Notes under the pieces: model-generated
What the model was told of the DNA's origin: nothing
What the model saw: only the letters and a program-made list of their open reading frames with translations
Database searches by the model: none
Translations under genes and position numbers: made by a program
Source: Ignavibacteriales bacterium
GTDB taxonomy: Bacteria; Bacteroidota; Ignavibacteria; Ignavibacteriales; Ignavibacteriaceae
Reading direction: 5' to 3'
Assembly (NCBI GenBank): GCA_012517155.1
Contig: JAAYVN010000004.1
Coordinates: 1-54,839 of the forward strand
Length of the DNA: 54,839 nucleotides
Shown: one piece after another, positions 41,608-46,374 of the stretch
Layout: the number at the start of each line of letters is the position of its first letter
How positions within the stretch are numbered: position 1 is the stretch's first letter

Positions 41608-41925
41608 TTATTTATAAAAAAGAGCAAGCCAAACAGTTTCTCTTGACAGGGAAGTATAAGTAATCCGATGTTTTAGGTGTGCAGGAATAATAAGATAATT
41701 TCCGGGTTTTAAATCAATTACATTATTATCAATGAATTCGATACCTGCGGATCCGGAAATAAGGATTACAAGTTCATTTTCTGATTGATCGTACCAAAAT
41801 CCCTCAGGGGAGGAATGTCCAGAACTTACTATTCTTTTAAAGCGGAAATTATCTCCTGAGATTATTTCGTCTATTAGCTCTTCGGGAAGATCTTTTGGGA
41901 TATTCTCAAATAAATTTTTCATCAA
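41608..41925 (-). CDS. Small cupin-domain protein
   Basis: The 105-residue cytoplasmic protein is a single cupin barrel. It has the ELVILISGSAGIEF core strand pair (about 50-63) and a second motif PGNYLIIPAHLKHRI (about 74-88) with possible metal ligands H82 and H85; the first motif lacks the usual paired histidines. Small cupins of this type often serve as sensors or regulatory subunits. It is divergent from the LytS kinase gene, and two LytTR-like half-sites lie in the shared intergenic region. GGAG precedes the ATG on the minus strand. Confidence 0.82.
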   Translation of the reverse strand: MMKNLFENIPKDLPEELIDEIISGDNFRFKRIVSSGHSSPEGFWYDQSENELVILISGSAGIEFIDNNVIDLKPGNYLIIPAHLKHRITYTSLSRETVWLALFYK

Positions 41926-41949
41926 AATGTAACTCCATAGATATTAATA

Positions 41950-41978
41950 ACCGTTGATCATTAAAAATAACCGTTCGG
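41950..41978 (+). promoter_or_regulatory. Putative LytTR binding site (two direct half-sites)
   Basis: ACCGTTGAT (41950-41958) and ACCGTTCGG (41970-41978) both match the published LytTR half-site pattern [TA][AC][CA]GTTN[AG][TG] and lie in direct orientation, embedded in a 10-bp perfect repeat AATAACCGTT. The start-to-start distance is 20 bp (11-bp gap; the family norm is 12-13). The pair lies 75 bp before the LytS start and 25 bp before the divergent cupin start, and a LytTR-type response regulator is encoded just downstream. Confidence 0.6.
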
Positions 41979-42052
41979 TAAAAAAAATACTAATATTATT
42001 ATTATAACATGTAAATTTAATTATAAAATTCAGACGGAAAATTAAAAAACAA

Positions 42053-43144
42053 ATGGTGAATAAAAAAAATTTCAATCGTGAACAAATATACTGGATTTGT
42101 CAATTCCTGGGTTGGGGTGGATTTATCCTGATCAATGTTCTGTTTACGGTTTTCATAAAAGGGGAAAAAAGTCAAAATTTCATAATATTACCTGTATATT
42201 TCATCTTGGGGATAGTACTTACCCACATTTACCGAAATTACATAAAAAAACATAGATGGCATTCATTAAGCATAAAAAAGTTAGTTACAAATGTAGTTAT
42301 TTCAAATTTACTCATTTCTCTAATCATAGTAGCTATCTTTTATGGAATTATTATAATTTTCTCATTATCCGAGCATGAGTTTAACTGGATATACATAGTA
42401 ATATCGATTTTTAATGTATTCATCATAATTATTGGCTGGTCATTAGTATATTTTTCAATACATTTTTTCGAAAACTACAGAAATGCTGAAATTGAAAGGC
42501 TAGTATGGGAAGCAGCTGTTAAGGATTTCGAGTTAAAGACACTCAAGTCACAACTTAATCCTCACTTTATGTTTAATGCTCTAAATAGTATAAGATCACT
42601 TATTGAAGAGAATCCAGAGAGAGCAAAGACAACTATTACTCAGTTATCAAATATTTTCAGATATTCGCTAAGGATAGATAAAGTAGAAACGGTTCCACTT
42701 GAAGAAGAACTTAAAACTGTAATTGATTATCTCGATTTGGAGAAGGTAAGATTTGAGGAGAGGCTCAATTATGAAATTGATATAGATCCAATGACAAGAG
42801 GGATAGAAATTCCACCAATGATGATACAGACGCTTGTTGAAAACAGTATCAAACATGGGATTTCGAAAATTCCAGATGGAGGCAAAATTAGAATTAATTC
42901 AAGGAGAAATAAGGAGTGCCTAGTTTTAGAAATTGAAAACAGTGGGGAAATAGATTTGGAGGCATTGAACAATGCGACAGGATATGGAATCAGTAATACC
43001 AAACAGCGTCTTAATATATTATTCGGAGGACGCTCAAACTTTAGAATTCTAAATACAACCAGCAAAAACAAAGTTGAGAACTTTGTAAAAGTTGAAATAA
43101 AAATACCATTAGGAGGTAATTGCAATGAAAGCACTTATAGTTGA
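42053..43144 (+). CDS. LytS/YehU-type sensor histidine kinase
   Basis: The 363-residue protein has four N-terminal membrane spans (about 17-36, 43-60, 82-103, 112-137) with no large extracytoplasmic sensor, then a His_kinase domain with phospho-acceptor H171 in LNPHFMFNALNS and the ATP-site N264 in LVENSIKHG. It probably phosphorylates the LytTR regulator encoded next, with which it overlaps by 20 bp. A possible -7 box (TAAATTTA, 42012-42019) precedes it. The compact membrane domain suggests sensing of membrane state or a small hydrophobic signal. Confidence 0.9.
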   Translation: MVNKKNFNREQIYWICQFLGWGGFILINVLFTVFIKGEKSQNFIILPVYFILGIVLTHIYRNYIKKHRWHSLSIKKLVTNVVISNLLISLIIVAIFYGIIIIFSLSEHEFNWIYIVISIFNVFIIIIGWSLVYFSIHFFENYRNAEIERLVWEAAVKDFELKTLKSQLNPHFMFNALNSIRSLIEENPERAKTTITQLSNIFRYSLRIDKVETVPLEEELKTVIDYLDLEKVRFEERLNYEIDIDPMTRGIEIPPMMIQTLVENSIKHGISKIPDGGKIRINSRRNKECLVLEIENSGEIDLEALNNATGYGISNTKQRLNILFGGRSNFRILNTTSKNKVENFVKVEIKIPLGGNCNESTYS

Positions 43145-43844
43145 TGACGAGAGATTAGCCAGAACCGAACTCAGAAGACTGTTAAACCCTTTTAAGGAAA
43201 TAGCTATAGTAGGAGAAGCTATTAACTCTGACGATGCTATAAAGAAGATTGCTGAATTAAAACCTGATTTGCTATTTCTTGACATACAAATGCCAGGGAA
43301 ATCGGGTTTTGAACTACTTGAGAATCTAGACACAGTACCAAAAGTGATATTCACAACCGCGTACGATGAATATGCGTTAAAGGCATTTGAATATAATGCT
43401 CTGGATTATTTATTAAAACCAATTGAACCGAAGCGGTTAGAAGAAGCAATAAAAAGAATTATAAAGAGTGTTTCAGAGGAGTTGGAAAGTGAAGGGCATA
43501 GTGAATCCCTTAAACCTGAAGATCAGTTTTTTGTTAAAGATGGTGACAGATGCTGGTTTGTAAAATTAATGGATGTCAGGTTGTTTGAATCAGAGGGCAA
43601 TTATGTGCGACTATATTTTAACGAATATAAGCCTTTGATCTTAAGGACACTGAATTATCTTGACGAGAGACTAGATCAGAAAACATTTTTCAGAGCAAGT
43701 CGAAAACACATAGTAAATCTAAAATGGATTGAAGCGATTGAGCCGTGGTTAAACGGTGGATTACTTGTAAAATTAAAAGGGGGGCAAAAAGTTGAAGTCT
43801 CAAGACGTCAATCAGTAAAATTCAAAGAGATGTTAAGTTTATAA
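43125..43844 (+). CDS. LytTR-family response regulator
   Basis: The 239-residue protein has a receiver domain (1-115) with the acidic pocket D7-D8, phosphorylation site D53 in LLFLDIQMPG, T83 region IFTTAYDEYA and K104 (DYLLKPIE), then a LytTR DNA-binding domain (about 133-237) recognised by FESEGNYVRLYF and FFRASRKHIVNL. It overlaps the kinase gene by 20 bp and has AGGAGG in that overlap. Candidate targets are the half-sites at 41950-41978, implying autoregulation and control of the cupin gene; this is inference. Confidence 0.93.
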   Translation: MKALIVDDERLARTELRRLLNPFKEIAIVGEAINSDDAIKKIAELKPDLLFLDIQMPGKSGFELLENLDTVPKVIFTTAYDEYALKAFEYNALDYLLKPIEPKRLEEAIKRIIKSVSEELESEGHSESLKPEDQFFVKDGDRCWFVKLMDVRLFESEGNYVRLYFNEYKPLILRTLNYLDERLDQKTFFRASRKHIVNLKWIEAIEPWLNGGLLVKLKGGQKVEVSRRQSVKFKEMLSL

Positions 43845-43850
43845 TCCGGA

Positions 43851-45110
43851 TCAGGTCTTTTGTTTTTTCTTTTTAGCTGCAGGGAAAAGAATATTATTAA
43901 GAATCAGACGATATCCAGGAGAATTTTTATAGATATTTAGTTCAGTTGGAGGGTCACCAACCAAGTGTTGGTAATCCTCCGGATCATGCCCCCCATAAAA
44001 TGTGAAAGTACCCCTGCCATAGTTTCCGTGGATATACTTGACTTGATCCAATCCTTCTCTTTCACCAAGAATTACAACTGACTTTTTAATTAGATTTTTT
44101 CTAAAAGAGGTAGTCTGACCCATAAATCCTTTAATAACATTTACATGATTCTGAGTTAGCATAGTTGGAACCGGGTCATATTTTGCAGAGAATTCAAACA
44201 GGGAAAAATAATCATTTTCCTGAGACCCAACTTCCATTGGTTGAATATCGATATCACTATATTCGTAAATCATGGGATTCATTTCGAGTGCAAAATCCTC
44301 AAAGGCAAGCGAAAAGGAAAAATCCAATTTAGTTTGAGCTCCGGGCTCGGGTGGATCTCCATCGAACATCCTATCGCAAATATCGGTATTGTGAGCAGCC
44401 AGTGAAATATCGTAGGAATCTGTTGCAGAGCACATAGCAAATAAAAAACCACCATTACCGATGTATTCTTTTATTGTAAGAGATACAGAACGCATAAGTT
44501 CAGAGACTTTTCTGAAACCGAGTCTTCGGGCATCATTTTCGTATCTAATCTGCTGTTCAATGTACCATTGGGCATTCGCATAGCTTGCATAGAATTTACC
44601 ATACTGACCCGTAAAGTCTTCATGATGGAGATGAAGCCAGTCATATTTGGACAAGTCACCATTAATTATCTGCTCATTCCAGATTTTTTCATAAGGAATT
44701 CCAGCATACTCGAGAGCAATTGTTACAGCGTCATCCCAAGGTTGGAAACCAGGGGGTACATAGACAGCCACTTTTGGAGCTTTTTCCAAACGAATCACTT
44801 CCATATTTTCAGATTCACTTTGTACCAGAGAGTAAATATCGGCTACTTCAACGGGGGTGAGTTCCGAGTAATATACACCGGCTATTCTACACTCAAGAGC
44901 TATATCATCTGAAAAATCAATCATAAAAGAGCCCCCACGAAAATTTAGCAACCAGTCTGCTTTATAACCCTTCTCAAGAGCATGATAAGTAATACCATAA
45001 GCCTTAAGATGATCAGTTTGAGCAATGTCCATATTTATGAACAATTTATTCTGAGCAAAAGATGCATTCAATAAGAGCAGAGAAAAAATGAGAGAATAAA
45101 AGTGTTTCAT
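43851..45110 (-). CDS. Secreted protein of the Bacteroidetes 'asparagine synthetase B' annotated family
   Basis: The 419-residue protein starts at ATG 45110, which gives a clean signal peptide (about 1-20, ending in SFAQ). A longer start at 45143 would overlap clpX and put 11 polar residues before the signal, so it is rejected. It contains the conserved LHHEDFTGQYGKFYASY segment (about 160-176). I recall homologues in Bacteroidetes carrying the name asparagine synthetase B, but no AsnB glutaminase (N-terminal Cys2) or ATP-pyrophosphatase motif is present and the protein is exported, so that name should not be trusted. Function unknown; it follows clpX by 10 bp. Confidence 0.72.
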   Translation of the reverse strand: MKHFYSLIFSLLLLNASFAQNKLFINMDIAQTDHLKAYGITYHALEKGYKADWLLNFRGGSFMIDFSDDIALECRIAGVYYSELTPVEVADIYSLVQSESENMEVIRLEKAPKVAVYVPPGFQPWDDAVTIALEYAGIPYEKIWNEQIINGDLSKYDWLHLHHEDFTGQYGKFYASYANAQWYIEQQIRYENDARRLGFRKVSELMRSVSLTIKEYIGNGGFLFAMCSATDSYDISLAAHNTDICDRMFDGDPPEPGAQTKLDFSFSLAFEDFALEMNPMIYEYSDIDIQPMEVGSQENDYFSLFEFSAKYDPVPTMLTQNHVNVIKGFMGQTTSFRKNLIKKSVVILGEREGLDQVKYIHGNYGRGTFTFYGGHDPEDYQHLVGDPPTELNIYKNSPGYRLILNNILFPAAKKKKQKT

Positions 45111-45120
45111 ATCAAACTCT

Positions 45121-46374
45121 TTATGCTGATTTTCTATCTTCAATATAAATTGGGATATCTTTTTTAAGGACAGTATCCTTTGTAATAATGCACTTAGTTA
45201 CATCTTTTTTGGAAGGAAGATCAAACATGATGTCAACCATAAAATCTTCAAGGATTGACCTTAAAGCCCGAGCACCTGTCTTCCGATCAAGTGCAATTTT
45301 AATAATTTCATCTAAAGCAAAAGGATCGAATTCGAGTTCAATTCCTTCCATTGCGAAAAGTTTTTTGTACTGTTTAATAATTGCATTTTTCGGTTTGGTA
45401 AGGATATTCTTCAATGCCTCTTCATCTAATGAATTCAGGGGTGCGATGACAGGGATCCGGCCAATCAATTCAGGAATAAGTCCAAAGCGAAGGATATCTT
45501 CAGGGCGGACTTGGTTGATCAATTCATCATCGGTCAATTCCCTGGTATCTGTCAGACTAGTGCCAAATCCGATTTTGCTTCTGTTAATACGATTTGAAAC
45601 TATTTTTTCAATACCTTCAAAGGCACCACCCACAATAAAAAGAATATTCTTAGTGTTAACATTAATAAGACTTTGTTCCGGGTGTTTTCTGCCGCCTTTA
45701 GGAGGGACACCAGCAATTGTACCTTCAAGAATTTTCAAGAGTGCTTGTTGCACACCTTCACCAGACACATCGCGGGTAATTGAGGTGCTCTCACTTTTCC
45801 TAGCAATTTTATCAATTTCGTCAATGTAGACAATACCCTTTTGTGCCCGTTCAAGATTGTAATCTGCAGCCTGTAAGAGGTGAACCAGGACGGTTTCCAC
45901 ATCATCGCCCACATAACCAGCTTCTGTTATTGTTGTAGCATCGGCTATGGCAAAAGGTACGTCTAAAATTTTTGACAGAGTAGAAGCAAGAAGAGTTTTT
46001 CCCACTCCAGTTTTACCAATTAAGAGGATATTGCTTTTTTCAATTTCCACCTCATCGCCGGACAAAATGGGCATATTAGAATGGACTCGTTTATAATGAT
46101 TATAGACAGCTACAGCAAGTATTTTCTTAGCGCGATCCTGACCGATAACATATTCGTCAAGAACAGCTTTTATTTTTGCAGGGATAACAACCTTGGGGAT
46201 TTTAGATTTGAAATTATTTGCCTGACCCAAAGTATTACGCAGAATATCCATACTGCTCTGAATGCAAATATCACAAATATATGCATTGGGACCAGCGATA
46301 AGAGATATAACCTCTTCATTTCCACGTCCACAGAAGGAACATTTAATAGTTTGCTGACCAGTTCGTTTACCCAT
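45121..46374 (-). CDS. clpX: ATP-dependent Clp protease ATP-binding subunit ClpX
   Basis: ClpX is the AAA+ unfoldase that feeds substrates to ClpP. The 417-residue protein has the N-terminal zinc-binding domain with C12, C15, C34 and C37, Walker A GKTGVGKT (120-127), Walker B IVYIDEID (181-188), pore loop GYVGDDVE (about 153-160) and the C-terminal sensor-2 [10 protein letters not shown]. No clpP gene is adjacent, unlike the common clpP-clpX order. It follows the TPR gene by 4 bp and precedes the secreted unknown. Confidence 0.97.

Follow-up and report, generated by a model that had tools for sequence, protein, structure and literature searches.

A conserved LytTR-type repeat pair upstream of a lytS-lytR operon in Ignavibacteria: a predicted operator for positive autoregulation, with probable efflux and phosphatase targets

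Operators of LytTR regulators consist of two repeats of 9 to 11 nt with 11 to 13 nt between them, and autoregulation through such operators is established (PMC4847170, PMC6193735). In the LytTR Regulatory Systems (LRS) of Streptococcus mutans (HdrRM and BrsRM; PMC6193735), as in the locus described here, a LytTR protein goes together with direct repeats about 9 bp long that leave 11 to 13 bp between them, and, as we predict for this locus, the site lies upstream of the promoter of the system's own operon, positive autoregulation being combined with the control of output operons (PMC6193735). BtsS/BtsR and YpdA/YpdB of Escherichia coli (PMC5552118, PMC4847170) share with it a LytS-type kinase, a LytTR regulator and two-site promoter DNA.

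The stretch of DNA analysed in this study (the window; 54,839 nucleotides, from an Ignavibacteriales bacterium) carries a kinase-regulator pair of this type next to a small cupin gene. The features concerned are as follows.

41608..41922, minus strand: small cupin gene, divergent, probably a bystander (Cupin_2, PF07883; Pfam)
41950..41960, plus strand: predicted LytTR half-site 1, ACCGTTGATCA; first CC at 41951; fits the family half-site CC(A/G)YTTATCA
41970..41980, plus strand: predicted LytTR half-site 2, ACCGTTCGGTA; CC at 41971, exactly 20 bp past the first CC
42012..42019, plus strand: predicted -7 promoter element of the Bacteroidota type, TAAATTTA; consensus TAnnTTTG; 61 bp from the first CC
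42053..43144, plus strand: lytS, sensor histidine kinase of 363 aa (His_kinase PF06580, weak HATPase_c; Pfam)
43125..43844, plus strand: lytR, response regulator with a LytTR DNA-binding domain, 239 aa (Response_reg and LytTR; Pfam)

The start of lytR overlaps the end of lytS. Pfam searches agree with the gene calls of an earlier note on this DNA, namely a PF06580 kinase, an overlapping receiver-LytTR regulator and a small Cupin_2 protein. Both domains of the regulator score well above their cut-offs (Response_reg, 86.3 bits against 30.2; LytTR, 80.5 against 22.6), and the adjoining PF06580 kinase, together with the retention of the pair in relatives, makes this a LytS/LytTR two-component system. 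The best NCBIfam model for the regulator is BtsR, whose equivalog cut-off of 246 bits it does not reach (185.6), and the locus is not an LRS, as the partner is a histidine kinase, not a membrane inhibitor. Among the matches listed in a PDB search there were only receiver-domain relatives, which were of no help on DNA contacts. Some relative of the kinase occurs in 59 of the 59 genomes searched (family and order), the nearest ones being in Ignavibacteria MAGs. Orthologues of lytS across the family are about 48-58% identical to it, and those of lytR are 72-80% identical in Ignavibacteria and about 57-66% in Bacteroidota relatives. A close lytS orthologue was not found in the sister family f2, which has other LytS-like kinases, and the genome of the window encodes a second LytTR regulator, 39% identical to the first (contig C148). 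The genes upstream of lytS vary; identified by eye from their sequences, they are an RseP-like protease gene in 23 loci, a glycosyltransferase gene pointing away from lytS in four close relatives, and other genes in the remaining loci. Positions 43851-45143, beyond the end of lytR and on the other strand, encode a secreted-looking protein of 430 aa with no Pfam or NCBIfam match.

The sequence AATAACCGTT occurs twice on the plus strand before lytS, at 41947-41956 and 41967-41976, with a step of exactly 20 bp. The half-site cores are ACCGTTGAT (41950-41958) and ACCGTTCGG (41970-41978) on the same strand, and the identity between the two copies runs leftward to AATAACCGTT. The pair sits in an intergenic gap of 130 bp bounded by the ATG codons of the cupin gene (41922, minus strand; the listed start, a TTG at 41925, lies one codon further upstream) and of lytS (42053), with 74 bp left between the second half-site and lytS; the sequence itself thus bears out the earlier description of two direct half-sites 20 bp apart in this gap. 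With conserved half-sites of 9 bp, 11 nt between them and a 20-bp step, the pair has the form of a LytTR operator (two direct repeats of 9-11 nt, 11-13 nt between). Taken singly, ACCGTTNRK shows no enrichment in the window, with 6 matches against an expected 3.4, but as a pair it does: the only two matches 10-40 bp apart are those before lytS; pairs at 19-23 bp were absent from 60 first-order Markov windows. In the 3.29-Mb genome AACCGTT-N11..18-ACCGTT occurs once, although a reversed control pattern matches three times. We therefore abandoned the literal pair as a genome-wide search term, which is unique, yet no better than its control and, because the control also matches, proves little by itself. 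The comparative test is the decisive one.

A two-block Gibbs search of 85 non-redundant upstream regions of lytS and its orthologues (the window among them) left the spacing free between 19 and 23; of its four runs, three settled on CC(A/G)YTTATCA and CCNNTNATAA at an offset of 20. The family dyad recovered de novo upstream of lytS orthologues is CC(A/G)YTTATCA-N10-CCNNTNATAA, with a fixed 20-bp step, and in the relatives it is almost always intergenic. An early fixed-offset motif scan did not discriminate between offsets, since the lytS upstream regions of relatives contain a second strong motif, rich in AT, that interfered with it. It was replaced by an unbiased count of CC offsets, in which offset 20 followed 43 of 67 first-half matches and any other offset at most 9. 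When a matrix was built from the sites of 36 relatives, leaving the window out, position 41951 ranked first in the window with 10.7 bits, against 3.9 for the next position. In 80 family genomes a strict pattern matched 55 times as against 7 times for its reversed control. The genomes compared are related, so that independent observations are fewer than the number of genomes.

The site stands at a fixed distance from a predicted promoter. The Bacteroidota promoter element TANNTTTG (e.g., PMC9723704, PMC7366714) has TAnnTT as its core. Counted from the first CC, this core is found at offset 61 in 31 of the 36 lytS promoters and, for tolC (see below), at offset 60 in 25 of 31 promoters. Of 67 promoters, 56 thus have it at the offset usual for their gene, and no other offset is represented more than 5 times. 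The window itself has TAAATTTA at offset 61. The combination of matrix and -7 box gives the window site 17.7 bits, as compared to 8.4 for the next, and the same arrangement precedes some lytS relatives in Bacteroidota (L149, L151, L164, L165 and L168). The fixed distance couples operator and promoter, which argues for activation from just upstream of the promoter; positive autoregulation would be expected to show an operator at a fixed place before the system's own promoter, as is seen in the window and for 31 of the 36 orthologues. The conserved pair, its spacing and its promoter-relative position before orthologous lytS genes strongly support the proposal, already made from the window alone, of a LytTR half-site pair in an autoregulatory circuit.

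Further elements were seen in these upstream regions. In many Ignavibacteria (for example, the lytS relatives L108, L111, L125 and L138) a strongly conserved AAGATTATATTTGATG-like element abuts the start codon of the kinase gene. Its distance from the first CC is about 106-117 bp, which places it some 50 bp downstream of the -7 box; it is absent from the window and is possibly a translation-start or second promoter element. Terminator-like, GC-rich hairpins were noticed by eye between operator and kinase start in some relatives (L059, L134, L061 and L036).

Compared with the family operator, the site in the window has diverged, and it is weak if judged solely with the genome-wide model. In a sequence-model search of the whole genome with the family model it comes only 12th (E 7.2), the tolC site being first (E 0.016); its -7 box, TAAATTTA, is a weak match of 3.0 bits, and 2 of 120 random strands reached its combined score. 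Its identification therefore rests on orthology, on position and on the tolC site of the same genome, with which it has ACCGTTNATCATT and AACCGTT in common. A pattern with two mismatches allowed gave 21 matches in this genome and 11 in the control, and was of use only because the tolC site stood out.

That further site, CCGTTAATCATTTATTTTAACCGTTTGAGAA, is the best one elsewhere in the genome. It lies on contig C90, 88 bp before a gene of the TolC family that heads an operon, the further genes of which encode a MacA/HlyD adaptor, an ATPase of the MacB type and two permeases (MacB_PCD/FtsX); the tolC promoter has TAATTTTA at offset 60. The tolC orthologue is present in 56 of 59 genomes. With the genome of the window left out and CC-N18-CC as the rule, a pair at exactly 20 bp precedes tolC in 30 of 32 family genomes, and offset 20 accounts for 30 of 53 second-half matches upstream of tolC; among 17 genomes examined from two sister families, none has the site. 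As to the exceptions, the matrix still gives 22 bits in one (G020), and the other (G012) is also without a close lytS orthologue.

Strict-pattern matches other than those before lytS precede genes whose products are secreted or belong to the outer membrane, TolC-type proteins among them. When the site and the -7 box were modelled together, with only the lytS and tolC sites of other genomes as training data, two more genes were picked out in the genome of the window: one for an M16 peptidase (25.6 bits) and one for a membrane protein of 689 aa (22.6 bits), in which a SpoIIE phosphatase domain is accompanied by a weak match to GAF. The latter gene (L388, contig C155) is followed by one for an RsbW-like HATPase, which suggests a partner-switching module. 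The promoters of the SpoIIE-phosphatase gene, which was held out of model training, score from 4.4 to 26.2 in 24 of 24 family genomes, against no more than -0.3 in 6 of 6 genomes from sister families. The M16 peptidase gene was dropped as a core target, its site being found only in this genome and a few others (G027, G028, G008 and possibly G030). The probable outputs are thus the tolC-macAB-type operon, the SpoIIE-type phosphatase gene and, in some genomes, the M16 peptidase gene. Sites of the family type also occur about 80-165 bp before secreted or envelope genes (L211, L212, L213, L342, L343, L345, L348, L349, L350 and L354), which by eye include genes for TonB-receptor-like, TolC, M16- and S46-like peptidase and PspC-like proteins.

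The repeat pair is very probably a DNA switch bound by the neighbouring LytTR regulator, and we hold with good confidence that it is the operator of the LytS-LytTR operon, serving positive autoregulation, with efflux and phosphatase genes as further targets and the cupin gene as a bystander. A site acting in both directions, at which LytTR would activate lytS and modulate, most simply repress, the cupin gene as an output or ligand-sensing partner, as the earlier note had it, appears unlikely. The intergenic gap is common to both genes, and the minus strand carries the -7-like sequences TATTTTTT (41989-41982) and TATTTTTA (41969-41962) beside and inside the operator, so that a bound dimer could block them. 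The suggested overlap with the cupin promoter may thus be real, promoter-like TATTTTTA lying within the spacer, and interference or a side effect on the cupin gene is possible; nothing indicates selection for it. However, the direct repeat has the orientation and the spacing that suit the lytS promoter, a comparison of the gene neighbourhoods of the kinase-regulator pair revealed no relative with the cupin gene beside lytS or with cupin, lytS and lytR together, and 27 cupin homologues in relatives have no comparable upstream site on either strand (best, 3.6 bits against 15.6 for the window). We therefore gave up the cupin as a conserved partner of lytS, whether as output or as ligand sensor, and consider the gene probably a lineage-specific neighbour. 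In a comparison of the cupin with the Nif11/cupin model TIGR03890, its match covers the C-terminal part at 86 bits, below the cut-off, with no Nif11 part.

A chance repeat in AT-rich intergenic DNA would agree with the unremarkable number of single half-sites in the window and with the matches of the reversed control in the genome, but we regard it as highly improbable, since the motif was recovered independently from relatives and both the spacing and the -7 offset are exact. Negative autoregulation, with the same operator used for repression, is quite improbable: repressors too can occupy fixed positions, but the pair lies upstream of the -7 region and not over it, with a constant 40-41 bp between its second CC and the -7 box, a geometry comparable to that of the activating sites of LRS operons (PMC6193735). 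It is about equally doubtful that a different LytTR protein, such as the paralogue on contig C148, reads these sites and that the regulator of the window has other targets. LytTR proteins recognise similar half-sites, and two genomes (G024 and G026) keep the tolC site with no close lytS orthologue in the assembly, so that another LytTR protein may read the tolC site there. Nonetheless, the most constant location of the site in the family is before the lytS-lytR operon itself, and the f2 family, lacking a close lytS orthologue, has neither tolC nor phosphatase sites.

For positive autoregulation by LytTR of the window, the mechanism that we propose draws on what was observed of the sites, namely how they are spaced, where they stand with respect to the -7 box, how far they are conserved and in which lineages they occur, and is as follows: LytS would phosphorylate the LytTR regulator; the phosphorylated regulator, as a dimer, would bind both half-sites, which are two turns of the helix from each other, on the same face of the DNA; bound just upstream of the promoter with the -7 box at 42012-42019, it would activate its own operon; and the same protein would bind like sites, at a like distance from the promoter, before the tolC-macA-macB-type operon, the SpoIIE-type phosphatase gene and the M16 peptidase gene of its own genome, and would activate envelope and efflux genes as well. 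We infer the binder, its activating effect and the kind of signal from sequence. As the sites are common to efflux, phosphatase and peptidase promoters, LytTR probably runs an envelope or export stress response. Whether the regulon (the system itself, a TolC-MacAB-type exporter and SpoIIE partner switching, with operators 60-61 bp upstream of TAnnTTTG) extends family-wide in Ignavibacteria, and probably in Bacteroidota, is in our judgement an even call. If it does, it would be an envelope-stress circuit joining a two-component system to partner switching, of which we found no description in the literature searched.

LytS/LytTR pairs are frequent in Bacteroidota and Ignavibacteriota. We found no paper that defines their binding sites or targets in these groups, and searches for LytTR with MacB, Ignavibacteria or TANNTTTG returned nothing relevant; the operator type and autoregulation are already known, and the regulon appears undescribed in the literature searched. 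The family motif with its 20-bp step and fixed -7 distance provides a rule applicable to other genomes of the group. It yields a testable regulon (the system itself, the TolC-MacAB-type exporter, the SpoIIE phosphatase and the M16 peptidase) and moves attention from the adjoining cupin gene to targets elsewhere in the genome.

Within Bacteroidota, the LytTR and kinase genes FJOH_RS09515/09520 of Flavobacterium johnsoniae, with consecutive locus tags, are a possible parallel and a lead only (PMC10197871). When F. johnsoniae evolved with an antibiotic producer, FJOH_RS09515 or 09520 was mutated in 5 of 5 lines, and tolC mutations arose as well in 4 of 5 (PMC10197871). The LRS differ from the system described here in having a membrane inhibitor protein in place of the histidine kinase, in their -35/-10 promoters, and in their outputs, which are bacteriocin and competence genes (PMC6193735). 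The targets of E. coli BtsR and YpdB are pyruvate or MF superfamily transporters (PMC5552118, PMC4847170), whereas those predicted here are lytS itself, TolC-MacAB, the SpoIIE phosphatase and the peptidase.
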